NCBI GenBank assembly: GCA_005772955.1 | Contig: SXID01000150.1 | Coordinates: 1-41,149 of the forward strand | Direction: 5' to 3' | Origin: Planctomycetia bacterium | Lineage (GTDB): Bacteria > Planctomycetota > Planctomycetia > Gemmatales > Gemmataceae | DNA: 41,149 nucleotides | In this document: positions 5,015-41,149 of the stretch, piece by piece | Layout: each line of letters starts with the position of its first letter | Position numbering within the stretch: position 1 is the first letter of the stretch | Notes under the pieces: model-generated | Databases searched by the model: none | What the model saw: only the letters and a program-made list of their open reading frames with translations | What the model was told of the DNA's origin: nothing | Program-made: the position numbers and the translations under genes

Positions 5015-5021
5015 AGAAGTC

Positions 5022-5123: not shown

Positions 5124-5126
5124 TTG

Positions 5127-6149: not shown

Positions 6150-6150
6150 A

Positions 6151-6214: not shown

Positions 6215-6215
6215 G

Positions 6216-7961
6216 TCAGGGCCGGACCACCGTTTGGGCTTGTTCGGCCGTTGCCGAAGGCGCGGGAACTTCCGTGGGTGAGTCGGTCGCGTCCCACCAC
6301 TGCGCCGCGATCGCCGCGTTCCAGTCTCTACTGCACGCACACGCGTCGAGCGCGGCATCGAGTGCCAGCGCGGTCTGGAAGCGTTCGGCCGGGTCTTTCG
6401 CGAGGCACTTCGCGACCACCGCCGCGAGGTCGGCCGGGATGTCGTTCCGCAATGTCGAAAGGTCCGGGGCCGGCTGTGTCAGGTGCGCCGCGAGCAGCTT
6501 CCCGACGCTCGTGCCCTCGAACGGCGGCCGTCCCGCCAGCACGAAGAACGCTACTGCTCCCAGCGAGTACAGGTCGCTGCGTGGGTCAACCGATTCGCCC
6601 GCGGCCTGCTCCGGGCACATGTACGACGGGGTTCCCAGAACGGTGCCGGCTCGCGTAATCTTCACATCGGTAGCGGAACTGTGATCCTGTACCAGACCGA
6701 AGTCGAGGAGTTTCGACACGTCGCGCTGACCGCCCAGTGACGTGACCAGAATGTTCGATGGCTTCAGGTCGCGGTGAACCATCCCGCGTGCGTGCGCTTC
6801 GGCAAGCGCGCCGCAAAGCTGGCGCAAGAGGTACACTGCGCGGCCGGGTGCTAGCGCGCCGCGGTCCTTTACCAGCGAGTCGAGCGTCGGGCCTTCGAGG
6901 TATTCCATCACGTAGTAGAAACTGCCGTCGTCGCTGCGCCCGTAGTCGTAGATGCGGACCGTGTGAAAGTGCGTGAGCGTCGTCACCGCGCGCACCTCGC
7001 GCTCGAATCGCGCCGCGGTTGCGGGTTCCGAGGCGAGTTCGGCGCGAACGAACTTCATCGCGCACGGGCGTTTCAACAACCGGTGTTCGGCGAGCCACAC
7101 TTCGCCCATACCGCCCTCGCCGAGTTTCTTCCGAAGTACGTACGAGCCGAGTTGCTTCGCCTCGCGAATCGCATCGAATGCCTGGCGCTGAATCGCGATC
7201 GAGCGCGACGCGCTGAACACCGCGACCACACCAGCCATGAACAACGGCAGGGCTGTGACCGGCAGAATCGACTCGAGTATTTCGCGAATGCATGGGTTGA
7301 CGATCGCGGCGGCGACAGTCGCCAGAATCGGGACGAGGCACAGCAAACCGGCTCCGATTAAACTGCGCCGGCGCGTGTTCGGAATGAGCACGCCGTAAAG
7401 GATGATGGCAAGGACGCTCGGATAGTTCGTGATGATCGCATCGAACCGATACAGGATTTCCGAGTAGTGTTCTTCGGTCGAGGCGACGGGAGGTGCGGCG
7501 AGAACCAGAAACCGCGCGGTCCCGGCAAACAGCCCGATCAGCGCGAACTGCAAGACCTCGACGAACCGGAACGCCGCGAGCGACGCTTCCGGTCGGCGTA
7601 GCAAGAACGCTAACCCGACGATGCTCTGCACGCAAGAAATCAGTGGCAGAAGCACCGCCCAATTGACCGGTCCCATCTTGTGCTGCAGCACCTGTACCCC
7701 GGCGAGATTCGCCACAATGAAGAACGCGGCTGCGATGCCGATCGCGCCGTGCGTGACCAGCAACCGCTTGCGGAGCAGTTGGCGCGTTTCTTCGGCGAAG
7801 CCCGCTGACCCAGCCGAGGTCGTGCGTGGGAGCGTGGAGACGGTTTTTGTAGCGGCATTCGGGCGTAGGAGTGTCTCGTCGGTGGTACTCGGCGCTTCGC
7901 GCACCACCGTCGCGCCCGGTTCGGGCGGGCGAATTACGGTTGTTTCTGGAATGTCGGGCAT
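6216..7961 (-). CDS. Membrane Ser/Thr protein kinase with C-terminal catalytic domain
   Basis: 581 residues from ATG 7961 (a TTG at 7973 is an alternative). A Pro/Thr-rich N-terminus of about 65 residues is followed by about six predicted membrane helices (residues 67-250) and then a bacterial PknB-like kinase domain (about 273-545). Seen in it: glycine loop LGEGGMGEVWL, AMKFVR lysine, VHRDLKPSNIL catalytic loop, LLDFGLVQD metal-binding motif and GTPSYMCPEQAAG activation loop end. All key residues are present, so it should be active. The order is unusual: most such kinases have the kinase first and the membrane helix after it. The gene is followed by repeat copy 1 and tsaD. Confidence 0.93.
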   Translation of the reverse strand: MPDIPETTVIRPPEPGATVVREAPSTTDETLLRPNAATKTVSTLPRTTSAGSAGFAEETRQLLRKRLLVTHGAIGIAAAFFIVANLAGVQVLQHKMGPVNWAVLLPLISCVQSIVGLAFLLRRPEASLAAFRFVEVLQFALIGLFAGTARFLVLAAPPVASTEEHYSEILYRFDAIITNYPSVLAIILYGVLIPNTRRRSLIGAGLLCLVPILATVAAAIVNPCIREILESILPVTALPLFMAGVVAVFSASRSIAIQRQAFDAIREAKQLGSYVLRKKLGEGGMGEVWLAEHRLLKRPCAMKFVRAELASEPATAARFEREVRAVTTLTHFHTVRIYDYGRSDDGSFYYVMEYLEGPTLDSLVKDRGALAPGRAVYLLRQLCGALAEAHARGMVHRDLKPSNILVTSLGGQRDVSKLLDFGLVQDHSSATDVKITRAGTVLGTPSYMCPEQAAGESVDPRSDLYSLGAVAFFVLAGRPPFEGTSVGKLLAAHLTQPAPDLSTLRNDIPADLAAVVAKCLAKDPAERFQTALALDAALDACACSRDWNAAIAAQWWDATDSPTEVPAPSATAEQAQTVVRP

Positions 7962-16691: not shown

Positions 16692-17555
16692 TCACTTCTT
16701 GAGTGCGTTGCCCAGGAAGTCGAATAGCGCCTTTGTGGCCAGGTCGTCGGACAGACCGAGATCCGCGTTGATCTTGGTGTGCGTTGTCTCCCTTGCTCCG
16801 AACAGCGTGGCGGGAACACCGGCCTCCTTCATGACGTTGCCCAATCGCTGGGCCTGCGCGCTGACGTCGGGGTGTCCCGAGACGTACAGGAGCAGGAACG
16901 GCGGGATGCCCTTGCCCTGCGCCACGTGTGTGACTGCGGAGAAGTCCTTGTGCTTCTCCGGGTCGTTGCCGAATTTCTCCCGGTGGCCGAACTTCGCGCG
17001 TGGCAGGTTGTGCGCCTTCCACCGGGCTTCTGCGGTCGCGATCATGGCAGGCACGTCGTAGGTGTCCCCATCGACCGGCACGCAACCCTTCACGATGTCC
17101 AGCGATAGTTTCTCGGCCTTCAAGTAGCGATCGTCGGTGCAGATTAGCGCGGCGAGTTGCGCCCCGGCGGAGTGGCCCATGACGAACATTCGCTTCGGGT
17201 CGCCACCGAACTCCGCGACGTGGTCGTGAGTCCAGCGAACGGCCTTCGCGACATCCTGCACAATGGTCGCCATGTCCACTGCGGGCAGCAGCCGGTAGTT
17301 GGTGGCAACGAAGATGAAGCCTTTCTCCGTGAACACCTTAGGCTTGAGCTGGACATCCTTCTTGTCACCCGCCTGCCAGCCGCCGCCGTGAATCCAGAAG
17401 ACCACCGGTAGGTTCTTTGCATCCTTTGGGTAGTGGACGTCGAGCACCTGCCGTTCATGTCCCTTCTCGACGTAGGGGATGTCGCGTTTGACCTCTTGCG
17501 CCCGCACGTCGGCGGCGACGGCGAGAACGACAAGGAGAGTAGAGACGAGTCGCAT
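16692..17555 (-). CDS. Secreted alpha/beta-hydrolase (esterase)
   Basis: 287 residues with a signal peptide [19 protein letters not shown]. It has the oxyanion-hole motif [12 protein letters not shown] (His56-Trp60), the nucleophile [10 protein letters not shown] (Ser129), a likely acid in [10 protein letters not shown], and a His in [12 protein letters not shown], giving a complete triad in the pattern of carbohydrate and feruloyl esterase-like hydrolases. It is the last gene of a minus-strand run of catabolic enzymes and ends 19 nt from the WD40 gene. Substrate cannot be told. Confidence 0.9.
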
Positions 17556-17624
17556 GATGTCCGCCCTTGACAGAGGAGAGGTCTTGAACCGGAGGCGTGG
17601 GTGACTTTGGAGGAGTCGCTGACG

Positions 17625-18770
17625 TCACGGCAGGAGCATGATACACGACGGGCTGGGGTGCTTGACCGGGTCGCCGGCCGATTTCAGGCGTCCCGTTTTA
17701 GCGTCGATCCCGAACACCGCGACGTTGTTCCCCGGCATGTTTGAGCACAGCAGCCACGCGCCGTCCGCGGTGATCGCCAGGTTCTGCGGGCCCTTTCCGA
17801 GGCTTGGCGCGATGACCACGAGCGTCAACATCCCGTCCTCACCGATGCTGTAGGCCGCGATGCTGTCGTGTCCGCGGTTGGTCCCGTACAGGAACTTTCC
17901 ATCCGGCGTGATCTTCAGATCGGCGCAGTAACTGGTGCCTTTGAAGTCGTTCGGGAGCGTCGAGAGTGTCTGCTTCTCGGTGAGGGTGCCCGATTCCGCG
18001 TCGTAGTCGAACACGGTGACCGAGTTCAACAGTTCGTTGATGACGTAGACGCGTTTCCCGTTCGGGTGGAAGGTGAGGTGTCGCGGCCCGGCTCCCGCGG
18101 GCGACTTGGCGAACGGCGTCTTGTTCGGCGTCAGCTTCGCCGTGGCCGGGTCGAGTTTGTAGCAGAGGATCTGATCAAGCCCCAGGTCGGCGGCGTAAAC
18201 GTACTTGTTGTCCGGGCTGACGACGATGCAGTGGGCGTGCGGCTCCTTCTGCCGCTTCGGGTCTACGCTCGACCCTTTGTGTTGGAAGAACGACGCCTTC
18301 TCGCCGAGTGAGCCATCGGCCTTGACCGGGAGCGAGGCCACGCTCCCCGATGTGTAGTTCGCCGCGAACACGGCTTTGCCCGTCTTGTCAACGTCCAGGT
18401 AGCACGCCGCGGTGCCTTCCGCCGATTGGCGGTTGAGCAATTTCAGTTCGCCGGTCCGACCGACCACCTCGTACGCGGCGACCTGCTCGTTCTCCTTCCC
18501 GCCGAACTGCTTGGCGTGGATCGAGTACAGGAACTTCTTGTTCGGGGACAGCGCGAGGAAGAACGGGTTCTCCGCACCGGCCGTGCGCGTGAGCGCCTTG
18601 AGTTTGCCAGCCTTGGTGTCGAACTCGTAGGCTTGGATGCCGCCCTTGTCACCGGGTGCAAAGGTTGTGATGAATACGATCGGGTCGGCCGCGGGTGCGA
18701 GACTCGGTGCGGCGAGCAGGGCGAAGGCGGCGAGCGCGAGAGCTGGAACGGGCCGGTACGCGGTCATCAT
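17625..18770 (-). CDS. Lactonase-like beta-propeller protein
   Basis: 381 residues from ATG 18770, which has GAGGA 8 nt upstream; a much longer open frame to 19208 has no support. A signal peptide (ALALAAFALLAAPSLAPA) precedes repeated propeller motifs of the 6-phosphogluconolactonase/lactonizing-enzyme type: GGIQAYEFDTKAGKLK, FLALSPNKKFLYSIHAK, ACYLDVDKTGKAVFAANYTS, PHAHCIVVSPDNKYVYAADL, GPRHLTFHPNGKRVYVINE and PQNLAITADGAWLLCSN. Family members hydrolyse sugar lactones or bind sugars. The exported form suggests an extracytoplasmic substrate. It lies between esterase and aldolase genes. Confidence 0.88.
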   Translation of the reverse strand: MMTAYRPVPALALAAFALLAAPSLAPAADPIVFITTFAPGDKGGIQAYEFDTKAGKLKALTRTAGAENPFFLALSPNKKFLYSIHAKQFGGKENEQVAAYEVVGRTGELKLLNRQSAEGTAACYLDVDKTGKAVFAANYTSGSVASLPVKADGSLGEKASFFQHKGSSVDPKRQKEPHAHCIVVSPDNKYVYAADLGLDQILCYKLDPATAKLTPNKTPFAKSPAGAGPRHLTFHPNGKRVYVINELLNSVTVFDYDAESGTLTEKQTLSTLPNDFKGTSYCADLKITPDGKFLYGTNRGHDSIAAYSIGEDGMLTLVVIAPSLGKGPQNLAITADGAWLLCSNMPGNNVAVFGIDAKTGRLKSAGDPVKHPSPSCIMLLP

Positions 18771-18859
18771 GGGAATTCCTCGGTGTGGGACTGCGGTCAT
18801 CCGATCCGCCCCGAACGACGGCAATCGGGGAACGCGATAGTGCGGCCAGCATGAGACCG

Positions 18860-19630
18860 CTACCCTTTCCTCAATCCGTCGAAGGCCAGCGTCATCGCGT
18901 CCTTCATCATGGAACTTTCGTTGGAGTAGACGACCAGTCGCGCCCCCTGCCGGATCGTGCGCAGTGCCTGCTCGGACTTGCCGAACCAACACCCGGCCGC
19001 GACGTGGTGCTTGTCCGCGGTGTCGATGATCTTCTTCAGAATCGCGATCAGGTCTTTGTGGTCGTACTCGTTGGGGATGCCCATCGTCGTGGTCAGGTCG
19101 TTCGGCCCGACGAAGACCGCGTGAACGCCGGGAATTGAGCAGATCGCATCGAGGTTCTCGATCCCCGCCAGCGACTCGATCATCGGGATGAACACCGTGT
19201 CGCGGCACCGCACGTTCGTGACGTACTCCTTCGTCGCATCGCTAGGCCACTCGTTTTTGTCCAGCACTCGCTGGAGTGCCTTCCCCTTTAGCGGCCGGAA
19301 CACCGCGGCAGCGGCCAGCGCCTTCGCGTGCGCAACTTCCTCGACGTAGGGCACGACGACACCGTCGAACGAGTCGCACACCTTTGAGACGTCGTCCGGG
19401 TCGCGGCTGTGGGTGCGCGCGAGGCATGCGATGCCCTTCGCGTTGAGCGCGTACTTCATCGGTAGAAAGTCCGCGATGTCCAGCGCGTTGTGTTCCGCGG
19501 TGACGATGACGAAGTCGAGCGCGCCGCTTGGGAGGAAATCCACGAGTGCAGGAGTGACCGCGTGCTGGAAGAACGTGCCGAAAACGCGGTCGCCTTTGAT
19601 CAACTTGTCCTTCAGAACCTTGCCGCTCAT
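18860..19630 (-). CDS. HpcH/HpaI family aldolase
   Basis: 256 residues. Visible: VFGTFFQHAVTPALVDFLPS, VIVTAEHNALD with the general-base His47 region, IACLARTHSRDP with the conserved Arg, VFIPMIESLAGIENL (metal-binding Glu152) and VHAVFVGPNDLTTTMG (metal-binding Asp178). These are the divalent-metal class II aldolases that cleave 2-keto-3-deoxy acids into pyruvate or similar units. No signal peptide, so cytoplasmic. It starts 10 nt after the oxidoreductase stop at 19641, so the two are probably one operon and may act in the same sugar-acid pathway. Confidence 0.9.
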   Translation of the reverse strand: MSGKVLKDKLIKGDRVFGTFFQHAVTPALVDFLPSGALDFVIVTAEHNALDIADFLPMKYALNAKGIACLARTHSRDPDDVSKVCDSFDGVVVPYVEEVAHAKALAAAAVFRPLKGKALQRVLDKNEWPSDATKEYVTNVRCRDTVFIPMIESLAGIENLDAICSIPGVHAVFVGPNDLTTTMGIPNEYDHKDLIAILKKIIDTADKHHVAAGCWFGKSEQALRTIRQGARLVVYSNESSMMKDAMTLAFDGLRKG

Positions 19631-19640
19631 GGTGTGCCTT

Positions 19641-20750
19641 TCAGGTTAGCAGGCTCAGTGGGTTGACGCGGGACTTCAGCGGCAGTTCGACTGGCTTGGA
19701 CACGCGATGCGACTCGAAGACGGCCGCGATCATCTCGATGATGGCGGTGCAGTCAGTGGCGGAACACTTGGTCTCGCGGCCCTTCTCAATCGCCTCGATC
19801 AGGTCAGTGATGGCGGCGACGTGACCGCCCTCGTAGGAGCCGTCGGTGCGTGACTCCGGCTTGCCGATGCCGTCCGAGGTGATCTTCTCCCACTTGCTGC
19901 CGGTGCGCCCTGGCGACCAACTGCTGTCGCGCAACAGGTCGGCCTTCACCAGATAGCCGCTTTCCAGTTCGATGACGCCTTTCGAACCGAAGACCTGCAC
20001 GGCGAACCGCGTCGGCTTGCCGGCCATTCCCTTGCGGCTCGCGAAGTACCCGGTCACGCCCTTCGCGAACGAGTAGCTCGCTTGCACGTGGTCGCCGGCC
20101 AGAAGCCCGATCCCTTCCGGCCCTTCACGGAGGTGCGCCTTCGCCACGGGCTTGCCCTCGTGCGTCACCGTGGCGTAGCAGGAGGTTGCGCTACCGCCCG
20201 CGATGCTGCGCATCATCCCGAAGACGTGCGAACCCAACACCCAGAGGTCTTCGCCGCCGCCGCGGGCGTCCTCCTTGCCACGCCCGCGAATCTCCAGCAG
20301 GTCGCCGATGGTTCCGTCGGCGATGACCTTCAGCACGGTGGCGAGAACTGGGGAGTACTGGCTGATGTGCGCGATGCCGAGTTTCAGGTGCCGCATGTCG
20401 AGCGCTTTGACGACCGCGTCGCACTCCTTCAGCGTCCGGCAGAACGGCTTCTCCATGTAGATGTGGCAGCCGGCCTCGGCCGCGGCGATCAGCATGTCGT
20501 GGTGTTGATCGATCCAGCGAGGGCAGATGGCGACAATCTCCAGCTTCTCTTTCGCGAGCATGTCGCGGTAGTCGGCGTACGCGGTCTTGGCACCGTTGCG
20601 CTTTTGCGCCGCGGCGCGACCGGTTTCGTTCGCATCGGCGACGGCCACGATCTCGACGGCCTCCACCTTGCGGCACGCCGCATCGACCGCGTGACCGTAG
20701 TCGCCGCGCCCGGTGTGCCCGATGATCCCAACCCGATATTTCTTCGCCAC
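19641..20750 (-). CDS. Gfo/Idh/MocA family oxidoreductase
   Basis: 369 residues from GTG 20750, with GAGG upstream. The Rossmann nucleotide-binding start RVGIIGHTGRGDYGH is followed by VAVADAN, VAICPRWIDQHHDML and the catalytic-region motif YMEKPFC (100-102 EKP). The C-terminal domain continues through QVFGSKGVIELESGYL. Members oxidise or reduce sugars or inositols with NAD(P). No export signal, so it is a cytoplasmic partner of the aldolase that follows by 10 nt. Substrate unknown. Confidence 0.92.
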   Translation of the reverse strand: MAKKYRVGIIGHTGRGDYGHAVDAACRKVEAVEIVAVADANETGRAAAQKRNGAKTAYADYRDMLAKEKLEIVAICPRWIDQHHDMLIAAAEAGCHIYMEKPFCRTLKECDAVVKALDMRHLKLGIAHISQYSPVLATVLKVIADGTIGDLLEIRGRGKEDARGGGEDLWVLGSHVFGMMRSIAGGSATSCYATVTHEGKPVAKAHLREGPEGIGLLAGDHVQASYSFAKGVTGYFASRKGMAGKPTRFAVQVFGSKGVIELESGYLVKADLLRDSSWSPGRTGSKWEKITSDGIGKPESRTDGSYEGGHVAAITDLIEAIEKGRETKCSATDCTAIIEMIAAVFESHRVSKPVELPLKSRVNPLSLLT

Positions 20751-20785
20751 TTTAGAGTCCTCTGAATGGAGAGACGCGGTTCTTC

Positions 20786-20897
20786 ATCGTAGTCATCACG
20801 CTCCGCGTGATGTCGCCTTCGCGGTTCAGGTGCGATTTGCACAGAACGTTATCGCTTGCTCCAGCGCGGACCTCACGCGGAGCGTGAGGACTACGAT
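20786..20897. repeat. CTCACGCTCCGCGTGAGG repeats, inverted pair
   Basis: Copy 20786-20812 (ATCGTAGTCATCACGCTCCG, then CGTGATG) and the reverse copy 20871-20897 (CCTCACGCGGAGCGTGAGGA, then CTACGAT) face each other across 58 nt, between the two Gfo/Idh/MocA genes. Each is itself a palindrome. They belong to the same family as the four copies near 23.6 kb and the degenerate copy at 27220. Confidence 0.88.
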
Positions 20898-20902
20898 TCG
20901 AC

Positions 20903-22234
20903 TTACACTTCGGGAAGCACCCACGGCTTGCGGTACTCTGGGCGGGTCCGGAGAGCGTTCGCTTCCTTGTCGTCGAGGAAGGTTTCCGTCTCGGGGTCGA
21001 GCGTGAGCTTCCGCCCAACGCGCGCCGCGATGTTGCCAGCGTGACACAGCACCGACGCGGGGTGGCCGACGGTTTCCAGATCGCAGTAAGGCTTCTTGCG
21101 CGACTTGATGCAGTCGATGAAGTCCTGAACGTGCGCCTTCTCGTGACTGTCGCCTTCGCCCTTCGCCAGCACTTCGCCGGCCTTGCCGTAGGCGGTCCAG
21201 CGAGTGTTGCCCATGACGAGGTAACCTTGATCGCCGAAGATCGCGGCGCCCTCCGACTCAGCGAGGTAGTTGTAAGGTGCCCAGATCCGCATCTCGTAGG
21301 TGAGGAGTCGCGTCTCCTTGCCTTTGCCGTATTCGTAGTTCGCTTGCAGAGTGTCCGGGAACTCTTGCGCGTCGTCGAAGTACCACTTGCCGCCGTTGGC
21401 GAAGATGGTTCGCGGGAGGCCGAGCGGCGGCATCTTGTTCGCCTCCGCAGCGGCATCCATCAGCGCTACGGCCATGTCGAGCCGGTGGACGCCGTCGTTG
21501 CCGAGGTCGCCGGTGCCGTAGTCGTAGAGCCAGCGCCACCGCCCGTGGAACCGGTTCACGTTGAATGGCCGCTTCGGTGCCGGACCCATCCACATCTCGT
21601 AATCGACCCCGGCCGGCGCCTCGCTGTCCTTGGGGAACCCGATGGCACCTTGCTTCGAGCTTTCCCAGGCTTTCGCGACCACGACGCGACCGAGTTTGCC
21701 GGTCTTCACGAACTCGACCGCTGATTGCAACCGCTTGGTGGACCGGTGCTGCGAACCCATCTGAACGACGCGCTTGTGCTTCCGCAGCGCGGCCACCATC
21801 CGCATTCCCTCGACGATGTTGTGGCCGTCCGGCTTCTCGACGTACACGTCCTTACCGGCCTGACACGCGAGGATGGTCGGGATCGCGTGCCAGTGGTCCG
21901 GCGTGCCGATAACGATGGCGTTGATGGTCTTGTCGTCGATGAGCTTGCGGAAGTCGCTCTCGCTGCCCGGCTTTTTGCCCTGGAACTTCTCAGCGACCTC
22001 AAGCCCCTTCGCCAACCGGCCTGGGTCGAGATCCGCAATCGCGACGACTTCGACGTTCGGGTTCGCCGCGAACGTGTTGATCAGCGAGAGCGCGCGACCG
22101 CCGGCGCCCATGATGCCGACCCGGACGCGGTTGTTGGCCGGTTCCTTCCCGACCAACCCCGACGAGGCGAGCGCGACGCTCGCGGTTACGGCGCCCGATG
22201 TTTGCAGAAACGCGCGACGGGTTTGTTCTGACAT
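20903..22234 (-). CDS. Tat-exported Gfo/Idh/MocA oxidoreductase
   Basis: 443 residues from ATG 22234, with GAGGAAC upstream; the longer frame to 22990 is not supported. The start MSEQTRRAFLQTSGAVTASV is a twin-arginine signal, meaning the folded enzyme carries its cofactor across the membrane. The nucleotide motif VGIMGAGGRALSL is followed by IAIADLDPGR-like sequence (VAIADLDPGR), VIGTPDHWHAIPTI, YVEKPDGHNIVE and RWRWLYDYGTGDLGNDGVHR, a pattern common to exported planctomycete members. Substrate unknown; sugar likely. Confidence 0.92.
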   Translation of the reverse strand: MSEQTRRAFLQTSGAVTASVALASSGLVGKEPANNRVRVGIMGAGGRALSLINTFAANPNVEVVAIADLDPGRLAKGLEVAEKFQGKKPGSESDFRKLIDDKTINAIVIGTPDHWHAIPTILACQAGKDVYVEKPDGHNIVEGMRMVAALRKHKRVVQMGSQHRSTKRLQSAVEFVKTGKLGRVVVAKAWESSKQGAIGFPKDSEAPAGVDYEMWMGPAPKRPFNVNRFHGRWRWLYDYGTGDLGNDGVHRLDMAVALMDAAAEANKMPPLGLPRTIFANGGKWYFDDAQEFPDTLQANYEYGKGKETRLLTYEMRIWAPYNYLAESEGAAIFGDQGYLVMGNTRWTAYGKAGEVLAKGEGDSHEKAHVQDFIDCIKSRKKPYCDLETVGHPASVLCHAGNIAARVGRKLTLDPETETFLDDKEANALRTRPEYRKPWVLPEV

Positions 22235-22299
22235 GGTTGTTCCTCGGGGAAGACCGGCACAGTATGAGGTGTGGTCCGACCAATCGCGAGCGTTTTCCG

Positions 22300-23442
22300 T
22301 CACGGCCCGGCCGCATCGCGCCCGGCCGCGAGCCACGCCAGCCCGAACCGGGCGAACACGATTTCCTTGTACCCGTCCCGCTCGTACAGGCACCCGAGTT
22401 GTTCGTTCGGTAGAACCACGAGAGATGAGTAGGCGGCCGACTTCGCGTACATCACGCGCGCCCCGGGCCACGTCTTTCCCTGGTCGGTACTCAGGCGAAC
22501 CGTCATGCGTTCGCGTTTCGTGCTCGCGGGGTTGGCGAACACGAGTACGCCTTTGCCTCTCAGGCCTTCCACGCGGATCAGGCTCGCTTGACAGGTCGGT
22601 TCGATTAGCGCGTCGTCGAACGCGATCTCCGACCATGTGGCCCCGCGGTCGGTACTGATGGCCAGCGCGCGTCGGTTCTTGCCATGGTTGCTGCGCATGT
22701 TCAACAGCAGCGAACCGTCGTCGCGTTCGATCACGGCGCACTCGTTGGTCTTCGCAGTTGCGCGCCCGCCGACCTTCCACGTCTTGCCGTGGTCGTCGCT
22801 GTAGATGACGTGCGAGTACGAGTCGTCCCCACCCTTCACGCGATGGTCGCACGGGATGACCAGCCGCCCGTCCTTCAACTGGATGCCGACACCGGGGCCG
22901 GTGGCGTACCACGTCCAGTTCTCCGGCTTGACCACGGCGCTGATGTTCTCGGGCTTCGACCACGTCTCGCCGTCGTCGTCGCTGAAGCACATCAGTACCT
23001 CACGCGAACCGGGGCCGGAGGCCGCTTTGTTCTTCGCGACCGAGTTGCCGCCGGCGTTGCGCGTGAGCGGCAGCCAGATGCGCCCGGTGGTGCGGTCGAG
23101 GACCGGGCACGGGTTGCCAACCGTGTCGGTCCCGTCGTCCACGATCACCTGAAGTGGTCCCCAGGTGCGCCCGCCGTCAGTGCTGCGGCGAAGCACCATG
23201 TCGATGTCGCCGGTGTCGGACGTGCCCTTCTTGCGCCCTTCGGCGAAAGCCAGCAGTGTGCCCTCTTTGCCGACGATGACGGCCGGGATACGGAACGACG
23301 CGTAGCCTTCCGTCCCGGCGGTGAAGAGGACGACTTCTCGCGAAGGCGCGTCGCGCCCACCAGGCGACGGGGCAGGAGCCGGCTCTGCACTCCAGACAGC
23401 AGCGGCGCAACACAACGTCACGAGGAGGGCAGTGCGGGGCAT
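22300..23442 (-). CDS. Secreted sialidase (GH33-like)
   Basis: 380 residues from ATG 23442 (GTG 23475 is an alternative) with a signal peptide (ALLVTLCCAAAVWSA). The arginine motif YASFRIPAVIV (FRIP 50-53) is followed by SDTGDIDMVLRRS. Five Asp-boxes are seen: STDGGRTW (87-94), SDDDGETW (144), SDDHGKTW (195), STDRGATW (233) and STDQGKTW (278). LLLNMRSNHGKNRRALA and the Tyr in AAYSSLVVLPN complete the active-site pattern. GH33 enzymes release terminal sialic acid or related sugars. It is upstream of the Tat oxidoreductase by 65 nt on the same strand. Confidence 0.93.
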   Translation of the reverse strand: MPRTALLVTLCCAAAVWSAEPAPAPSPGGRDAPSREVVLFTAGTEGYASFRIPAVIVGKEGTLLAFAEGRKKGTSDTGDIDMVLRRSTDGGRTWGPLQVIVDDGTDTVGNPCPVLDRTTGRIWLPLTRNAGGNSVAKNKAASGPGSREVLMCFSDDDGETWSKPENISAVVKPENWTWYATGPGVGIQLKDGRLVIPCDHRVKGGDDSYSHVIYSDDHGKTWKVGGRATAKTNECAVIERDDGSLLLNMRSNHGKNRRALAISTDRGATWSEIAFDDALIEPTCQASLIRVEGLRGKGVLVFANPASTKRERMTVRLSTDQGKTWPGARVMYAKSAAYSSLVVLPNEQLGCLYERDGYKEIVFARFGLAWLAAGRDAAGP

Positions 23443-23812: not shown

Positions 23813-26065
23813 TCACGGCTTCGGGCCGACCGGCAGGTTGTCGGTGAGGTAGCGGGTGAGCAGTCCGTATAGGTGCCGCGTCGTGTTCTTCCCCTCGTTG
23901 ACCGAGTGACTCCGGTTCGGGTACGGCATCAGCGTAAACGGTTTGTTCAACTCGATCAGTTTATCCGCGAGCTTCTCGGTTCCTTGGTAATGAACGTTGT
24001 CGTCGCCGGTTCCGTGAACGAGCAACAAGTTCCCCTTCAACCCGGCCGCGTGAGTGATGGGTGAGCCGTGCCTGTAGTCTTCGGGATTGTCTTGCGGCAG
24101 TCCCATGTACCGCTCTTGATAGATGGTGTCGTACAGTCGCATGTCGGGCACCGGTGCGACGGCCATCCCAGTGTGATACAGGTCCGGGTGGCGGAACAAC
24201 AGGTTCAGCGTCATCGATCCACCTCCACTCCATCCCCACACACCGACCCGTGTCGCGTCGAGGTACGGGCGCTGTTTCAGCAGGTCGCGCGTTGCGGCGG
24301 ATTGGTCCGCGGAGGCGAGCGTGCCGACCTTACGGTACGCGGCTTTGCGCCAGTCCCGGCCGCGCGGACACGGTGTCCCGCGATTGTCCACGCATGCCAC
24401 CGCGTACCCCTGCTGCGTTAACATCAAGTGCCACAGGTACTGACTTCCGCCCCAGCGGTCGGTGACCGACTGGCCCGCCGGTTCGCCGTACACATGAACC
24501 ACCAGCGGGTACTTCTTTGCTGGGTCGAAGTTCGCCGGTTTCATCAGCCACCCGTTGAGCTTCACCCCGCCGCCGATGTCGGCGTGGAAGAACTCCACTG
24601 GCGTTTGCGCAAGCTTCCCCAGGGTCGCGCGGAGTTTGTCATTGCTTGCGAGGACGCGCAGAACCTTGTGGTCAGGGAGCGAGACGAGTTCGACGCTTGG
24701 CGGCCTGCCGAACGCGGAATAGGTGTGGACCGCGAACGCGCCGTCGGGCGACACGTTGTACTCGTGCCAGCCCGGTTGATCCGCGGGCGTGACGCGCTCC
24801 GGTATGCCGCTTCCGTTGAGCGGTGCTCGGTACAGGTAGTGTTGCGTGGGGTTGTCCGGCGACGCGAAGAAGTACACTCGCCCGGCTTTCTCGTCGATGT
24901 GCAGCACGCGAATCACGTCGAACTCGCCGCGAGTGACTCGCGTCACGGTGGCGCCGTCGCGCGACATGAGGTACAGGTGCCGCCACCCGTCCCGCTCGCT
25001 GATCCAGGTGAACGCGCTCCCCCTCGCGACCCACTCACACGCGTCGTCGTGGACATCGACCCATGTCCCGTCGCGCTCTGTGAGTACCGTTCGCACCTTG
25101 CCGGTCGCGGCGTCCGCAAGCATCACGTCGACCGCGTTCTGGAGCCGGTTGACGCGCTGTATCACCAACTCCTTCGCGTTGCCGGCCCACTCCATGCGCG
25201 GGATGTAGTAGTCGGTGCGTGTGTCGCCGGAAACGTCGATCCACTTCGTCGCGCTGCCCGTTGAAGCCACGACCCCGACGCGGCACGCCGAGTTCCGTTC
25301 CCCGGTCTTCGGGTACGCGAACGTCTTCAGGGTTGGGTAGTTCGCGCTGGTGTTGTCGATGAGTGTGAACGTCTTCACACCGCGCGTATCGAGTTGCCAG
25401 TACGCGATGCTCTTGCCGTCGGGACTCCAGCGCCACCCGTCGCGGCAGAAGAACTCTTCTTCGTAGACCCAGTCGAAGGTGCCGTTGATCACCTCGTCCG
25501 TTCCGTCGGCGGTAAGTCTCGTCGGTTCGCCGCCGTCGGCCGGTTCGACGAACAGGTCATTCCCGCGAACGTACCCGACGCGTTTGGCGTCGGGCGATAG
25601 TTTGGCGAACATCAACGCGGCCGGTTTGGTGTTCGCGCCGACCTTTGCGAGTTTGCCCTTCGCGCGGTGGAACGTCCAGTAGTCGCCGCGCGTGTTCGCA
25701 CGCCACACCTTCATGGAGTTCGTGAAGATTAGCACGAGGTCGAGATCCTTCGAGAGCTCGTAGCCGTGAATTGCGAGCGGTTCTTTCGTGTTCGGCGGGA
25801 CGAGTTTCTCCGCGGCAACGAGTACCTCGCTCTTCCCGGTCGCGTCCACCCGAACGATGTCGCTCGCGCCGTTGTGTTTCTTCGACGGCTGGAGCGTGGT
25901 GTACGCGCCGCCGTCGAGCCACTTCAGTGGCGGAACGCGATCGCCGCGGAAGTCGTCGGACGCAAACACGCGGTCGAGCGTGAGCTTCGCGGGGTCCGGC
26001 TGTTGCGGCTGTGCGGTAGCGGGAGCAACGACAAGGAAGAGGAGGAGAAACGCGCGACGATACAT
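23813..26065 (-). CDS. S9 family dipeptidyl-peptidase IV-like peptidase
   Basis: 750 residues with a signal peptide (MYRRAFLLLFLVVAPATAQ). The N-terminal two thirds is the DPP-IV beta-propeller with the double-Glu motif DWVYEEEF that grips the substrate amino end. The C-terminal alpha/beta-hydrolase domain has VWGWSGGGSM (Ser613), VHGTGDDNVHYQ (Asp688) and YPNRSHSVNEG (His720), a complete triad, plus the YGEPAGQ oxyanion region. It should release N-terminal Xaa-Pro or Xaa-Ala dipeptides outside the cytoplasm. The ribosome site lies in a hairpin (26070-26094). Confidence 0.95.
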   Translation of the reverse strand: MYRRAFLLLFLVVAPATAQPQQPDPAKLTLDRVFASDDFRGDRVPPLKWLDGGAYTTLQPSKKHNGASDIVRVDATGKSEVLVAAEKLVPPNTKEPLAIHGYELSKDLDLVLIFTNSMKVWRANTRGDYWTFHRAKGKLAKVGANTKPAALMFAKLSPDAKRVGYVRGNDLFVEPADGGEPTRLTADGTDEVINGTFDWVYEEEFFCRDGWRWSPDGKSIAYWQLDTRGVKTFTLIDNTSANYPTLKTFAYPKTGERNSACRVGVVASTGSATKWIDVSGDTRTDYYIPRMEWAGNAKELVIQRVNRLQNAVDVMLADAATGKVRTVLTERDGTWVDVHDDACEWVARGSAFTWISERDGWRHLYLMSRDGATVTRVTRGEFDVIRVLHIDEKAGRVYFFASPDNPTQHYLYRAPLNGSGIPERVTPADQPGWHEYNVSPDGAFAVHTYSAFGRPPSVELVSLPDHKVLRVLASNDKLRATLGKLAQTPVEFFHADIGGGVKLNGWLMKPANFDPAKKYPLVVHVYGEPAGQSVTDRWGGSQYLWHLMLTQQGYAVACVDNRGTPCPRGRDWRKAAYRKVGTLASADQSAATRDLLKQRPYLDATRVGVWGWSGGGSMTLNLLFRHPDLYHTGMAVAPVPDMRLYDTIYQERYMGLPQDNPEDYRHGSPITHAAGLKGNLLLVHGTGDDNVHYQGTEKLADKLIELNKPFTLMPYPNRSHSVNEGKNTTRHLYGLLTRYLTDNLPVGPKP

Positions 26066-26205: not shown

Positions 26206-27186
26206 TTACTTCTTCAGCCGCTCGATCAGGTACGCGGCCGCGGTAGGGAGTTCCTTGTTCGGCTCCGTGTTGGAGTGGAAGACCACATCGATCCCGGCCG
26301 CCTTGAGCTTCTCGGCCAACTTCAGACCCAGGATCGGGGAGTGCGTCGGGTCCGGGTGTTCCTCACCGACCTTCGCGCCCTTGACGCCGCCGTAGTAAAG
26401 CCCGATGGGCGGGTCGTCCTTCGTCACGTGGCGGATCGGTGAATACTCCTTGATCCAGTCCGCGATCTTCTCCCGGTTCTTCTCCACTTCATCGAGGTTC
26501 TTCAAGCCGAACGCGTGCGCACCGTAGGTGTAGTTCGGGAGCCACTCGCGAACTTCCTTCGGGTCGAGCGAGACCTGCGCCCCGTTCACGGCCGCGCAGT
26601 AGAGTCGGGTCGATTCGCGTGCGATGGGATCGGCGCTCTTGGGGTCGGCCATGTCGTCGTGGAACGCGAGCCATAGGGAGGAGCAGCCGCCGGCCGAACC
26701 ACCGGTCGCCCCGATCCGCTTCTTGTCGATGTTCCAGTCCGCGGCCTTTGACCGCACGAACTGAATCGCGCGGGCCGCGTCTTCGAGCGGTGCCTTCACC
26801 GGCGGCGTGACCTTCTGGGCGTTCGCCTGGGCCATCAACCGGTAGTTGATGGAGACCACCGAGATGCCGTTGTCGAGGTAGTTCTTCACGCCGCCGTAAT
26901 AGCTGCTCTTGTCGCCGCCATTCCAGCCGCCGCCGTGAATGCAGAAGACGACCGGCGTCGGCTTGTCGGACTTGGCTTGCCAGAAGTCGAGTACCTGGCG
27001 TTCGAGCTTCCCGTAGGGAACGTTCTCGGCGGTCGGCTTGATCGCCGGAACCGGCTGTTTCTTTTCGTCCTTCTTCTTTTCGTCCTTCTTCTCGTCTTTC
27101 TTCTCCTGTGCCTGTCCGCCGGCGAGGGCGAAGAGGGCGGTCATCGCGAAGACGATCGCGGGGCAAATGAACCTGCGGGACAGCAT
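26206..27186 (-). CDS. Secreted alpha/beta-hydrolase with Lys/Glu linker
   Basis: 326 residues from ATG 27186, with GGAGAG upstream. A signal peptide (ICPAIVFAMTALFALAGGQA) is followed by a highly charged linker (QEKKDEKKDEKKKDEKKQ), then a hydrolase domain with FCIHGGGWNGGD and ATGGSAGGCSS (Ser164). Asp in EEHPDPTHSPIL fits the acid. The usual catalytic His at the end of the fold is not obvious: the tail reads VVFHSNTEPNKELPTAAAYL. It may use another His or be catalytically weak. Related in fold to the esterase at 16692; a second copy of this type in the same locus. Confidence 0.87.
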   Translation of the reverse strand: MLSRRFICPAIVFAMTALFALAGGQAQEKKDEKKDEKKKDEKKQPVPAIKPTAENVPYGKLERQVLDFWQAKSDKPTPVVFCIHGGGWNGGDKSSYYGGVKNYLDNGISVVSINYRLMAQANAQKVTPPVKAPLEDAARAIQFVRSKAADWNIDKKRIGATGGSAGGCSSLWLAFHDDMADPKSADPIARESTRLYCAAVNGAQVSLDPKEVREWLPNYTYGAHAFGLKNLDEVEKNREKIADWIKEYSPIRHVTKDDPPIGLYYGGVKGAKVGEEHPDPTHSPILGLKLAEKLKAAGIDVVFHSNTEPNKELPTAAAYLIERLKK

Positions 27187-27219
27187 GTCACTCTCCGGGG
27201 TAAGGTGGGAACAGATCTT

Positions 27220-27246
27220 ATCGTAGTCATCACGCCCCGCGTAAAG
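27220..27246. repeat. Degenerate CTCACGCTCCGCGTGAGG repeat
   Basis: ATCGTAGTCATCACGCCCCG followed by CGTAAAG matches the family at 20786 but has lost the second arm, so it no longer forms the full palindrome. It lies upstream of the hydrolase gene. Confidence 0.65.
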
Positions 27247-27337
27247 TCGCTGGAACCACGAATAGGGGTGAATGTGTTTGGGAAGTGCAAGGTTTAGCGT
27301 CGGACCCAGAGGGGCCAAATAATGGAGCAGACGGCGC

Positions 27338-29263
27338 CTACTTGCGGCCCGGCGCTCGCTTCTCGAAGCGTTCTAGCCAGTCGAGCAGGATCGCGTCCTT
27401 GATCTCCTTCGACCCGCGCAACTTGTCCGGCGGCGTGCCCCAGTAGAAGCTGATCCACCCGGCCGCGTCTGCGCCCGCCTTCTCGATGAACACGTCCATT
27501 TCCTTCGGCGAACACTTCAGCGGGAACGTCTCCTCCACAACCACCGGCTTGCCCACGGCGAAGCCCTTCAGCGTCTTCGCCGCGTCATTGAGTTTCCCCG
27601 CCTCCGGGTAGATGTGAACGCAGAGGAAGTCGAGTTTGTCGGTCACCTGGTCCGGTACGAAGCCGGAGGTCAGTCCGTTTCTGTCAAGACTCCAGTCCAC
27701 CAGCCCAACGGTAATCAGGTGTTGCTTATCGACCTTGCGCACAGCGGCGACGAGGTGATCGATCCACTGCCGCGCGACATCGGCGCGCATGCGGCCCTTC
27801 GGATCGAGCGCGATGAACTGTACGAAGTGCTTGCCGCCGAATGCGCCGCCGAGCCAGTCGCCGTCCTTGCGCTTGCTGCCCGACACCACCGGTTCGTTCA
27901 TCAGGTCGTAGCAGAAGATCGCGGGGCTTTTCGCGCACCGCCCCGCGACCGCCTCCCAGAACTTTGCCTGCGCGTTCCAGCGCTCTGTCTCCGTGAGTTT
28001 GTCATACCACGCAGGGACTTCTTTCTTGTGGTAGCAGCCCAGGCCCGTCAGGTTGAGGTAAAGCCGGTTCGCTTCGGCCAACTTGACCAGTTTCGCGAGC
28101 CGGTCGAGCGCCTTCTCGTCGGGCTTGTCAGCAGCGGTCATGAACTTGCCGAACTGCAGGTGAACGCGGACCACGTTGGCCCCGAGCTTCTTCATCTGCG
28201 CGAAGTCGGCCTCGATCTTCTCCCATTCCTTTTCCCAGTAGTCCTCGATCAATCGCCCGGTTTCGTCGTGGTCGTAGTTGAATCCCCACGGCACGAACGG
28301 CGTGCCCCCTGGCTCCAGCGCGAAGCCCTTCTTGTCCTTCGACACCACCATGCGCGGCAGTTCGCCGACCCACTCCGCGAACGCGGCGCCCAGATCGACT
28401 TTCCCCGCGTGAACGAGAACGCCGAACCGGAGCCGGAACGATTCGCCTTTCTTCACCGTGACCTTGCTCTTCTCGCCGCGAGTGAAGGCGTTCTTGCCGA
28501 ACGGGTTGGCGACCAGCACGCCATAATCGCGCGAGTGAAACCACGACCGCCGGAAGTTCGTCGGGTCCGGCATCAGCGTGACACCCACTTCCTTGCCGTC
28601 GATCGTGCCGGCGTAGTCGCACCAGCCCGCCGACTTGCCCCACACTTCCTTCTCGTTCTTTTTGCCGTCGCTGTTGACGATCTGTCCGCCGCTCTTCACC
28701 GTGAGCGGCGTGGCGACCCGCACGCCCAGGCCCATCTCTTCCTGATCGCCAAAGGAGAAGTCCTCCGGACCGGTGAACTCCGAAGTCCAGTCGAGCAGGT
28801 ATCCGGCCGGGCGAACGGTGATCGTGACGCGGCACACTTCTTCGCAGAGCGACTTGCCGTGCGCGGTGTAACGGTTGCGCACCGCGAATGTGCCGCCGTC
28901 CTTCGTCGCCTTCGGTTTCTCGACGAACTCGACGTGCGCGACGGTGCCCTTGTTCCGCCAGAAGTCGGACCCCGCGAGTTCGCCGAACGCGAGCCACAGT
29001 CCTGGGTGCATGGTGTCATGATCAGTGGCGTCACCCACGACCGGCGGATGATTGCGCGTAACCTGCTTGCCGTTGGGCGCGTGCAGGTGCATGAAGTACG
29101 GGCGTCGCACCTTGGTATCTTCCCAGACGTAGGTTGCGAACGGCTTGCCGTCAATCTGGATCGCAAGGCTGGTTTCCTTCTGGGCAAACGTGACCTGTGA
29201 CTGCGCCCGAGCGCTCGCGGGAAGCACGAAAGCCAGAGAGAGGAGCAGAAGGCGAGTGATCAT
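27338..29263 (-). CDS. DUF6807-GH5-like fusion protein
   Basis: 641 residues with a signal peptide (1-20). The first 300 residues are DUF6807-like (PmoA-type family): PFATYVWEDTKVRRPYFMHL, RNHPPVVGDATDHDTMHPGL, LAFGELAGSDFWRNKG, and RSWFHSRDYGVLVANPFGKN. From about 310 the sequence switches to a GH5/cellulase-like barrel: TPFVPWGFNYDHD, GANVVRVHLQFGKFM, the acid/base motif YDLMNEPVVSG (Glu457), LDFLCVHIYPE, and the nucleophile motif KPVVVEETFP (Glu577 or 578), then GWISFYWGTPPD. Both domains look complete. It follows the zinc-ribbon membrane gene by 25 nt. Substrate unknown; a glycan is likely. Confidence 0.87.
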   Translation of the reverse strand: MITRLLLLSLAFVLPASARAQSQVTFAQKETSLAIQIDGKPFATYVWEDTKVRRPYFMHLHAPNGKQVTRNHPPVVGDATDHDTMHPGLWLAFGELAGSDFWRNKGTVAHVEFVEKPKATKDGGTFAVRNRYTAHGKSLCEEVCRVTITVRPAGYLLDWTSEFTGPEDFSFGDQEEMGLGVRVATPLTVKSGGQIVNSDGKKNEKEVWGKSAGWCDYAGTIDGKEVGVTLMPDPTNFRRSWFHSRDYGVLVANPFGKNAFTRGEKSKVTVKKGESFRLRFGVLVHAGKVDLGAAFAEWVGELPRMVVSKDKKGFALEPGGTPFVPWGFNYDHDETGRLIEDYWEKEWEKIEADFAQMKKLGANVVRVHLQFGKFMTAADKPDEKALDRLAKLVKLAEANRLYLNLTGLGCYHKKEVPAWYDKLTETERWNAQAKFWEAVAGRCAKSPAIFCYDLMNEPVVSGSKRKDGDWLGGAFGGKHFVQFIALDPKGRMRADVARQWIDHLVAAVRKVDKQHLITVGLVDWSLDRNGLTSGFVPDQVTDKLDFLCVHIYPEAGKLNDAAKTLKGFAVGKPVVVEETFPLKCSPKEMDVFIEKAGADAAGWISFYWGTPPDKLRGSKEIKDAILLDWLERFEKRAPGRK

Positions 29264-33496: not shown

Positions 33497-34906
33497 ATGC
33501 TGACCATCAGCGATACGCGGAACACCCGCACCTGCCAGGGTTCGTCGCGCCGCGAGTTCCTCCGCGTCGGGAGCCTCGCGCTGCTCGGCGGGATGGGACT
33601 GCCGCAGTTGCTCGCGGCGAAGGCAAAGGCCGCATCCGAGAACCGCGCGTGGAAGGACAAGTCGGTTGTGTTGTTGTTCCTCTCAGGGGGGCCGTCTCAC
33701 ATCGAGTTCTTCGACCCCAAAATGACCGCGCCCGAAGAGATCCGCAGTATCACTGGCGAAGTGAAGACGAAGCTCCCCGGCATCACCTTCGGCGGCTCGT
33801 TCTCCAAACTTGCGAACATGACCGACAAGATCGCTGTAGTGCGGTCCTACGCGTCGATGAACGGCGACCACTCGTACCTCGCCGTCACGAGCGGCGGCAA
33901 CCCGATGAAGGCCTCGATGGGTCCGCTGTACGCACGCGTCGCGGGCGCGAACAACGCGGTCACCGGCATCCCGAATAACTGTCTCGTGTTGCCCGAAGCG
34001 GTCGAGCCGGGGCTGAAGCTCGGCGGCAATTTCGAGACAGGCGCGCTGCCCACGCTCACCGCGCCGGGCGAACTTGGGGGGTCGTACGCCGCGTTCGACC
34101 CGAGCGGCGGCGACCAGCTCAAGAAGAACCTGAAGCTCTCGGTCACGACCGAGAGGTTCGAGGACCGGCGCAAGCTCCTCGCCGGGTTCGACACCGTTCG
34201 CCGCGACCTCGACGTGACCGGCGCGATGGATGGCGCGGACAAGTTCCAGCAGCAGGCGTTCGACGTGATCGCGCGCGGCGTCGGCGACGCGTTCGACATC
34301 ACGAAGGAAGACCCGAAGACCATCGCGAAGTACGACACGAGCGGGTTGTTCAAACTGAACGACGTCACGAAGTGGTATGACATGCGCCGCGGGACGAATC
34401 TGCTCGGCAAGCAGATGCTCCTGGCTCGCCGACTGTGCGAAGCCGGGTGCGGGTTCGTCACCGTATCTGATTGCGGTTGGGACATGCACGCGAACAGCAA
34501 CAGCCCGAAGAACATGGCGAACCTCCCTCCGATGGCAAGCCAAGTGGATCACGCAGTCGCGGCGTTCATCGAGGACATCTACGAGCGCGGTTTGGAGGAC
34601 AAGATTCTGCTGGTGGTGACGGGCGAGATGGGCCGCACGCCGAAGCGGAACCGCGACGGCGGCCGCGACCACTACGCAAATCTCACTTCGCTGCTCCTCG
34701 CTGGTGGTGGGCTGAAGACCGGTCAGGTGATCGGCCAGTCGGACCGGACCGCGTCGCAACCGACCACGGAGCGTTACACGCCAAAGCACCTTCTCGCAAC
34801 CGTGATGAGCACCGTGTTGGATCTCTCCGAAGTGCGGCTCAAGCCCGGCCTGGGACGAGTCGGGAACGTGCTCACCGAAGGCGACCCGATCCCCGGTCTT
34901 CTGTAA
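33497..34906 (+). CDS. DUF1501 protein (Tat-exported), second copy
   Basis: 469 residues from ATG 33497, with GAGGAG just upstream; the longer frame to 33407 lacks a site. The twin-arginine signal is SSRREFLRVGSLALLGGMGL. DUF1501 motifs: FLSGGPSHIEFFDPKMT, VVRSYASMNGDHSY, CGWDMHANSNSPKNM and VVTGEMGRTPKRN followed by GRDHY. No DUF1549/DUF1553 gene is next to it, unlike the 14201 copy, so partners are elsewhere or it works alone. The desaturase gene follows after 166 nt on the same strand. Confidence 0.93.
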   Translation: MLTISDTRNTRTCQGSSRREFLRVGSLALLGGMGLPQLLAAKAKAASENRAWKDKSVVLLFLSGGPSHIEFFDPKMTAPEEIRSITGEVKTKLPGITFGGSFSKLANMTDKIAVVRSYASMNGDHSYLAVTSGGNPMKASMGPLYARVAGANNAVTGIPNNCLVLPEAVEPGLKLGGNFETGALPTLTAPGELGGSYAAFDPSGGDQLKKNLKLSVTTERFEDRRKLLAGFDTVRRDLDVTGAMDGADKFQQQAFDVIARGVGDAFDITKEDPKTIAKYDTSGLFKLNDVTKWYDMRRGTNLLGKQMLLARRLCEAGCGFVTVSDCGWDMHANSNSPKNMANLPPMASQVDHAVAAFIEDIYERGLEDKILLVVTGEMGRTPKRNRDGGRDHYANLTSLLLAGGGLKTGQVIGQSDRTASQPTTERYTPKHLLATVMSTVLDLSEVRLKPGLGRVGNVLTEGDPIPGLL

Positions 34907-39794: not shown

Positions 39795-41149
39795 ATGAAC
39801 ACGCACTTTCCCTTTGTTCATTCGCGTCGCGAGTTCCTGCTTCGCACAGGCGGCGGGCTTGGCGGTATCGCGCTCAATTACCTGCTCGCGCAAGAGACCC
39901 TCGCTCGCGCTCCGGGCTTGTCGTCGAACCCGTTGGCCGAGAAGAAGCCGCACTTCGCGCCGAAGGCCAAGCGCGTCATCTTCATGTTCATGGTCGGCGG
40001 GCCGTCGCAGATGGACCTGTTCGACCCGAAACCAGAACTCGCAAAGTGGGCCGGCAAGCCGCTTCCGGAATCGACCGGCCAACCCAAGAGTCAGTTCACC
40101 ACGGGTAAAGAGGTGATTCTGCCGAGTACGCGGAAGTTCACGAAGCACGGCAAGTCGGGCACCGAGATCAGCGACCTGATGCCGCACCTCGCGACGTGCG
40201 CCGACGATATCTGTTTCTTGCGGTCGTGCTGGTGCAGCAACACCGTTCACGCCCCCGCGATGTACGAACTGCACAGCGGGCGCACGCTCATGGGCTGGCC
40301 GAGCCTCGGCAGTTGGGTCACTTACGGGTTGGGCAGCGTTTCTGAAAACCTCCCGGCGTACTGCGTGATGCCGCAACCGGAAGGCGTCCCCGAAGGTGGC
40401 GCCCCGTGCTGGTCAGGCGCGTTCCTTCCACCTGTGTATCAGGGCACGCTGTTGCGTCGCGGCCCGAGCCCCATTATCAATTTGAAGCCGCCAGCCGACA
40501 CCGGCGACGAGCAGAACAAGCGCGCGTTCGACCTCGTGCAGAAGCTGAACGCGGCACAGTCGATGGGCGACGCGGAACTCGAAGCGCGTGCATCGAACTA
40601 CGAGTTAGCGTTCAAGATGCAGAAGCACGCGCCCGACGCGGTCGATCTCGCGCAAGAGACGGCGGCGACGAAGAAGGCTTACGGTCTCGACGACAAGGCC
40701 ACTGCGGACTTCGGCACGCGCTTGCTCCTGGCACGCCGGTTGGTGGAACGCGGGGTGCGGTTCGTGACCGTGTACAGCGGCGGCGGCCCGCTCGTGACGC
40801 AGTGGGACGCGCACGACAACGTGAACGCGAACCACGAGAAGATGTGCGGCCACGTCGATCGCCCGATTGCCGCACTCCTGAAGGACTTGAAGCAACGCGG
40901 GATGTTGAAGGACACGTTGGTGGTGTGGTGCAGCGAGTTCGGGCGCACGCCAAACAGCCAGGGCGGGAAGGGTCGCGACCACAACCCGCACGGCTACACG
41001 ATGTGGCTCGCGGGCGGCGGCGCGAAGGGCGGAACCGTGGTCGGTTCAACGGACGAGTTCGGGCTGAAGACCGTGGACGACCCGGTGTCCGTGAACGACT
41101 TCCACGCGACGATTCTTCACCTGTTGGGGTTGGATCACGAGAAGCTGAC
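39795..41149 (+). CDS. DUF1501 protein, third copy (cut by window end)
   Basis: 451 codons are visible from ATG 39795 and the gene runs off the right edge, lacking roughly the last 20-30 residues. Twin-arginine signal: [23 protein letters not shown]1501 motifs: [50 protein letters not shown] and [16 protein letters not shown] followed by GRDH. The C-terminal LLGLDHEKL is typical. No DUF1549/DUF1553 gene precedes it in the window. It is transcribed divergently from the tandem peptidase at 39721. Confidence 0.93.

Follow-up and report, generated by a model that had tools for sequence, protein, structure and literature searches.

A DUF6807 domain fused to a GH5-type barrel in a putatively exported protein of Gemmataceae

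A planctomycete contig of 41,149 nucleotides (here called the window), one of the 278 contigs of a draft assembly, carries a gene that joins a DUF6807 domain (PF14100) to a GH5-type barrel. As far as these searches go, this is a new architecture made from two known families. We favour, with moderate confidence, the reading that the product is an exported two-domain enzyme in which a GH5-type retaining beta-glycosidase and a DUF6807 domain handling sugar rings were fused once. The C-terminal half would be the retaining beta-glycosidase, with E457 as acid/base and E578 as nucleophile. The N-terminal DUF6807 probably binds, and perhaps converts, the sugar at a chain end or the sugar released by the barrel. 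Enzyme activity, substrate, export and any cooperation of the two halves are inferences.

Domain layout and the GH5-like barrel

The fusion gene and the features around it are collected in Table 1. The open reading frame has 641 codons, starts with ATG and contains no internal stop. A 528-aa ORF runs antisense to it (27614-29200, plus strand), and our home-made gene caller chose the minus-strand fusion gene over this ORF. The match to PF14100 scores 174.7 bits against a cut-off of 27 (E 3.9e-51), spans positions 2-267 of the 270 of the profile and includes the conserved residues of the family. The match to PF00150 (Cellulase/GH5) scores 66.7 bits against a cut-off of 23.5 (E 3e-18). An NCBIfam scan of the fusion protein gave no match up to E 0.01. 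Profile search of the source genome returned three DUF6807 matches and one PF00150 match, the fusion gene being present in both sets. The original prediction of two domains in one protein is borne out by both profiles, and its proviso that the C-terminal half might fail to match GH5 has fallen away. Export is consistent with the N-terminus, MITRLLLLSLAFVLPASARAQ, which by eye resembles a signal peptide.

Table 1. Features of the fusion gene and of the genes downstream of it in the window. Conservation refers to alignments of 42 DUF6807 rows and 69 barrel rows.
Feature	Position	Strand	Remark
DUF6807-GH5 fusion gene	27338..29263	-	641 aa; leader peptide; join recurs in genomes G024 and G016
Probable signal peptide, residues 1-20	29204..29263	-	cut after ARA; by eye
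DUF6807 (PF14100) domain, residues 33-296	28376..29167	-	Pfam; predicted mutarotase-like beta-supersandwich
H82 of DUF6807	29018..29020	-	conserved in 42/42 rows
E176 of DUF6807, candidate active-site acid	28736..28738	-	conserved in 40/41 aligned rows
H243 of DUF6807	28535..28537	-	conserved in 41/41 rows
Junction, about residues 298-303	28355..28372	-	DUF6807 end AEWVG, then ELPR..VSKDKKGF
GH5-like TIM barrel, residues 302-641	27341..28360	-	PF00150 part, residues 343-556, at 27596-28237
R366 and H368, GH5 RxH motif	28160..28168	-	invariant in 69/69 rows
E457, acid/base (putative) in NEP	27893..27895	-	invariant in 69/69 rows
H550 and Y552, GH5 HxY motif	27608..27616	-	invariant in rows covering both
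E578, likely nucleophile	27530..27532	-	invariant in 69/69 rows; aligned to 1qno position 276
BD-FAE-type esterase	26206-27318	-	directly downstream of fusion, same strand
DPP-IV-like S9 peptidase	23813-26065	-	directly downstream of fusion, same strand
Run of BD-FAE-type esterase, lactonase-type propeller, HpcH/HpaI aldolase, two Gfo/Idh/MocA dehydrogenases and BNR/sialidase-like protein	16695-23442	-	

By profile, predicted TIM barrel and catalytic residue set the C-terminal half is a GH5 barrel. Its model (residues 300-641) comes closest to the exo-mannosidase Op5Man5 (7bob_C; Z 28.9, rmsd 2.6, 290 aligned, 18% identity), followed by GH5 mannanases with Z 25.5-26.2. A phmmer search for solved GH5 structures reached a best E of 0.0023. 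With the GH5 mannanase/exo-mannosidase branch (7bob, 1qno) the barrel shares the TIM fold, the RxH, NEP and HxY motifs and an equivalent nucleophile glutamate, whereas it is only 16-21% identical to its ten best fold matches, among which mannanases and mannosidases are nearest, and differs in standing behind a DUF6807 domain. In the profile alignment to the Trichoderma reesei mannanase 1qno, E457 falls on the NEP glutamate at chain position 169; we take positions 169 and 276 of 1qno, counted from the printed alignment, to be acid/base and nucleophile. Both motifs named in the original prediction contain their glutamates, NEP with E457 and VVEETFP with the pair E577/E578, of which the alignment makes E578 the likelier nucleophile. 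N456 and E577 are likewise found in 69/69 rows and W608 in 67/69. The rows come from Planctomycetota together with two Verrucomicrobiota records and one Omnitrophota record; one row, L116, is the window's own gene again and occurs once in this set and once in the set of 42 DUF6807 rows. A beta-mannan-like or other beta-glycan substrate is most likely, a suggestion that we put forward weakly.

Fold, conserved residues and partners of DUF6807

Folded alone from six sequences, the DUF6807 half gave a model with pLDDT 89 and pTM 0.90, which is predicted to be a galactose-mutarotase-like supersandwich. Structure prediction, as proposed at the outset for both halves, hereby yielded a GH5-type barrel and a mutarotase-like domain. 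In Foldseek the Bacillus subtilis GalM ranks first (E 3.8e-6). The model aligns with the beta-domain of a PL26 exo-rhamnogalacturonan lyase at Z 18.3 (rmsd 3.0, 233 aligned), with BDI_1685 at Z 17.4 and with GalM at Z 17.2-17.4. PL26 has a helical barrel, and the match is to the beta-domain part only (5xqj 127-500). Further matches are parts of alpha-mannosidases, of a GH36 alpha-galactosidase, of LacZ and of YidC. The predicted likeness to galactose mutarotase-like systems (GalM, the GH36 part, LacZ, the PL26 beta-domain) at Z about 15-18 contrasts with a sequence that bears no detectable kinship to aldose epimerases: hhalign of DUF6807 against a profile of 20 aldose epimerases from related genomes gave a probability of 0.5%. 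As far as the model goes, the resemblance to aldose 1-epimerase (PF01263; Z 17.4 to 3mwx) is one of fold only. The DUF6807 profile matched none of the PDB sequences to E 10, and viral contigs scanned with the DUF6807 alignment yielded 41 pattern matches and zero relatives. In five loci (L146, L149, L152, L154, L157) an unassigned N-terminal segment of about 100 residues, alike by eye, lies upstream of DUF6807; the PL26 match likewise starts only at chain residue 127.

The 42 aligned DUF6807 rows mix free, cytochrome-fused and GH5-fused members. Conservation of at least 95% is found at 33 positions, many of them polar or aromatic, including R70, H82, D100, W102, E176, R182, W214, D216, Y217, H243, R245, Y247 and N253. 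Judged from the alignment, these residues look like a working site. The fusion half matches the PF14100 family over its full length and differs from the rest of the family in being joined to GH5. Because it keeps the conserved polar residues of the family, the domain likely binds, and perhaps converts, a sugar.

A different reading makes DUF6807 a non-catalytic accessory that does no more than prop up the barrel or mould the pocket for its substrate. A supporting role of this kind is ascribed to supersandwich domains in some other glycosidases and lyases, and GH36 alpha-galactosidases have the domain order supersandwich, then TIM barrel. When the whole model was searched with Foldseek, alpha-galactosidases came first with both domains aligned (8k7v_B, E 1e-13, then GH36 AgaA, 4fnr_A), and the junction has no long linker. 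This two-domain alignment is loose, however (rmsd 23.5 A over 740 columns), and the barrel of the fusion is GH5 by sequence and fold. The full fusion model itself reached pLDDT 82 and pTM 0.67, so that the relative placement of the two halves is uncertain. The conserved positions of DUF6807 also exceed what one would expect of a prop, and in the frames examined the domain is widespread without a GH partner. We consider an accessory role possible and rather unlikely.

In the window's phylum 120 of 392 genomes contain DUF6807, and in that of the Verrucomicrobiales record L012 68 of 288 do; outside the GH5 fusion the domain is mostly a separate protein. Of 14 control genomes, Caulobacter alone has it. 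Partners were sought in the Verrucomicrobiales phylum in frames of at least 540 aa (20 loci among the matches listed, 10 of them Pfam-scanned) and in the window's phylum in 12 loci (10 Pfam-scanned). According to Pfam, DUF6807 is fused with HEAT/DUF7133 or cytochrome c proteins (L072, L153, L187, L188, L190; L185 below cut-off), with ThuA (L181, L189, L195), with an FGE-sulfatase (L079) and with a GDSL esterase (L184); in ten other long frames it is the only Pfam domain. A tail that by eye is DUF1080-like follows DUF6807 in L147 and L148 and gave no Pfam match at E 0.01, that of L147 none at E 1. One further frame of 1214 aa (L194, genome G776, 3321-6962, plus strand) has the order nucleoside hydrolase, DUF6807, PL11 rhamnogalacturonan lyase. 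Here too DUF6807 shares a chain with a glycan-cleaving enzyme, whereas the enzyme class is another, a nucleoside-hydrolase domain is added and the phylum differs; this fusion is independent of the one with GH5. The proposed link of DUF6807 to glycan cleavage accordingly stands in part. The PL11 fusion and the sugar-enzyme fold speak for it; the rarity of the GH5 fusion, the lack of co-occurrence reported below and the joins to ThuA, cytochrome/HEAT, GDSL and FGE-sulfatase proteins speak against it.

Distribution and origin of the fusion

Separate and fused versions of the two domains were searched for, and the halves are mostly separate. The full-length fusion is present in 3 of the 95 Gemmataceae genomes, namely the source genome, G024 and G016, which belong to the same genus. 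The copies share 71-84% amino acid identity per half and are joined at the identical residue (AEWVG, then ELP or PLP). Among the three, dN/dS is 0.19-0.40 for the DUF6807 half and 0.15-0.20 for the barrel; purifying selection acts on both halves. The fused rows make up a single clade in the GH5-like tree (99/91), with the free G017 protein as sister, and again in the DUF6807 tree (97/91), with the free G014 and G087 proteins as sisters; the simplest account is thus a single origin. The GH5-like tree holds 50 of the 69 rows, leaving out phylum rows past the first 12, the duplicate L116 and rows below 250 aa. The DUF6807 tree holds 41 of the 42 rows, leaving out the fragment L088; in it the window row was entered twice, and a long-branch warning concerns another part of the tree. 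The fragment L088 (G013:C140) covers residues 1-106 of a close DUF6807, at which point its 3.3 kb contig ends, and may be a fourth fusion. That a frameshift (the worry of the original prediction), a sequencing error or a chimeric assembly produced a false fusion, a view to which the window's status as one contig of a draft lends some ground, can practically be dismissed, since the same join recurs in two other assemblies, within one clade, under purifying selection and with no stop or frameshift.

The GH5-like half occurs in 36 of the 95 family genomes, the G042 copy being a contig-end fragment. In the 33 fusion-less ones it is mostly a separate protein, mostly of 340-390 aa as given by the home-made caller. 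Strong matches (E <1e-70) are found in 44 of 392 phylum genomes besides the window's, as a single copy each, and with weak ones included (E 0.001) the number is 60 of 392. Of these 44, 29 loci were examined with flanks of at most 1.5 kb, and DUF6807 is absent from all 29. Two larger frames contain the GH5-like half as well. In G018 (L054, 4477-7536, plus strand) an S9 peptidase stands in frame ahead of the same barrel, giving 1020 aa. In G022 the half lies within an open frame of 872 aa; Pfam matches nothing in the first part of this frame, which may be non-coding.

In free GH5-like proteins a signal-peptide-like stretch often lies directly before the post-junction sequence, and ELPR..VSKDKKGF is their mature N-terminus. 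The fusion would go back to a single event in the genus, in which an entire free DUF6807 gene came to stand before the mature part of a free GH5-like gene. DUF6807 with its own leader would have replaced the GH5-like signal peptide, a swap suggested by these free leaders together with the free DUF6807 genes found elsewhere, and by which both activities would be exported as one chain. Descent from adjacent genes found no support: the closest free halves lie on separate contigs in G014, and in G087 they share a contig at a distance of about 0.4 Mb. Fission in G017, where the free GH5-like protein has 80% identity to that of the window, found no support either: this protein branches outside the fused clade (99/91) and has a leader-like stretch of its own.

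The fusion could also be incidental, with DUF6807 serving mainly as an export leader for a GH5-like enzyme and the halves working independently. It is rare (3/95 genomes), and a close DUF6807 and a GH5-like gene do not co-occur: of the 33 genomes that have the GH5-like gene 6 also have a close DUF6807, as do 17 of the 59 that lack it (p 0.32; three fused genomes left out, the G013 fragment counted as close DUF6807). From the join to an S9 peptidase in G018 it follows, moreover, that the GH5-like half tolerates another N-terminal partner. Against this stands the dN/dS of the DUF6807 half in the fusion, since decay is to be expected in a leader of 280 aa that has no use. We consider an incidental join possible and rather unlikely. 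No operon partner common to the three fusions, or generally to either half, was found. Small sets of relatives share neighbours, including several genes within close pairs, and in G018 and G029 the same three genes, one of which by eye encodes a MoxR-like ATPase, lie downstream of the GH5-like gene. The neighbourhoods were read without L046, L048, L049, L059 and L086, which are very GC-rich and for which the caller chose the wrong strand; L046, the G016 contig, measures 4.6 kb. With neither co-occurrence nor a general neighbour, the fusion is best seen as a lineage-specific experiment, not as the tip of a general partnership.

Gene neighbourhoods and the role of DUF6807

Matches to Gfo/Idh profiles lie near DUF6807 in 7 of 20 loci versus 1 of 20 controls (Fisher p 0.044), and ThuA in 3 of 20 versus 0 of 20. 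The loci, on long contigs and all outside the window's family, were hand-picked from the higher-ranking matches, with controls 100 kb away on the same contigs, and the p values are modest. In a Pfam tally of 119 neighbour proteins GFO_IDH_MocA comes first with 8, AP_endonuc_2 has 3 and ThuA 2; sulfatases and ABC transporters number 4 each versus 2 each in the controls. GFO_IDH_MocA is absent among the 25 families listed for the controls (115 proteins), where the lowest listed count is 1 and one 2869-aa ORF was dropped. These neighbours hint at a role of DUF6807 in the catabolism of oxidised sugars.

The run at the end of Table 1 looks like a cluster for oxidised-sugar catabolism. Its Gfo/Idh pair lies 5-7 kb downstream of the fusion on the same strand, three genes away. 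Gfo/Idh-type models named glycoside 3-dehydrogenase exist in NCBIfam, and one of the pair matches such a model far below the cut-off. Relatives of the pair are absent around the fusions of G024 (16 kb) and G016 (4.6 kb), the best tblastn E being 0.95. Elsewhere in the window two DUF1501 proteins are encoded on the plus strand (33497-34906 and 39795-41149), a family frequent in the loci examined. In excerpts of the literature, ThuAB is described in trehalose use via 3-keto derivatives (PMC7404187, PMC4765114), BT2157 as a 3-ketotrehalose hydrolase, a 3'-ketolactose route as a proposal for Caulobacter and a 3-keto route as one for lactose, salicin and raffinose (all in excerpts of PMC9007349), and a PF14100 gene in a possible operon with two demonstrated beta-galactosidase genes (excerpts of PMC5342196). 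DUF6807 could on these grounds be a mutarotase-like isomerase, hydrolase or eliminase of keto-sugars that takes part in oxidised-sugar (3-keto-glycoside type) catabolism and is coupled to cleavage by GH5, a proposal that we regard as doubtful. If it were true, one exported chain would couple hydrolytic GH5 cleavage with keto-sugar processing, and the fusion would bridge two known ways of breaking glycans.

Doubt may also be directed at the barrel, which might be no glycosidase at all or act on a non-polysaccharide such as a glycolipid. Its identity to solved GH5 structures is low (the 18% to the best fold match), endoglycoceramidases are among its matches in sequence and fold searches, and no recognisable glycan cluster surrounds the gene. 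The GH5 catalytic positions are nevertheless invariant in all 69 rows across three phyla, and we judge this alternative improbable.

Searches of the literature under DUF6807, PF14100 and related names, which covered few subscription papers, returned passing mentions and no functional study. PmoA of methane monooxygenase is a membrane protein, and the names 'methane oxygenase' and PmoA do not fit PF14100, for which a beta-sandwich behind a leader peptide is predicted. The former name is given to PF14100 as a neighbour of beta-galactosidase genes (excerpts of PMC5342196), PMC10291797 uses PF14100 as a profile for PmoA, and in PMC10971088 it appears as a Pfam number; the excerpts available of two papers on planctomycete glycoside hydrolases (PMC5352709, PMC5673643) make no mention of PmoA. 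Since the predicted fold and the leader peptide argue against it, PF14100 appears to be a wrong marker for methane oxidation, and its use as such, as in PMC10291797, is spoken against.

The fusion had been offered as a handle on the role of DUF6807. It serves this end partly: the role is narrowed towards carbohydrate handling and is not defined, the fusion being rare, without co-occurrence of its halves and without a general neighbour gene. Its main worth is in the hints that it gives, together with the other partners, about DUF6807. The predicted fold and the conserved residues, together with the fusions to two classes of glycan-cleaving enzymes and the Gfo/Idh and ThuA neighbourhood, make this anonymous family testable.
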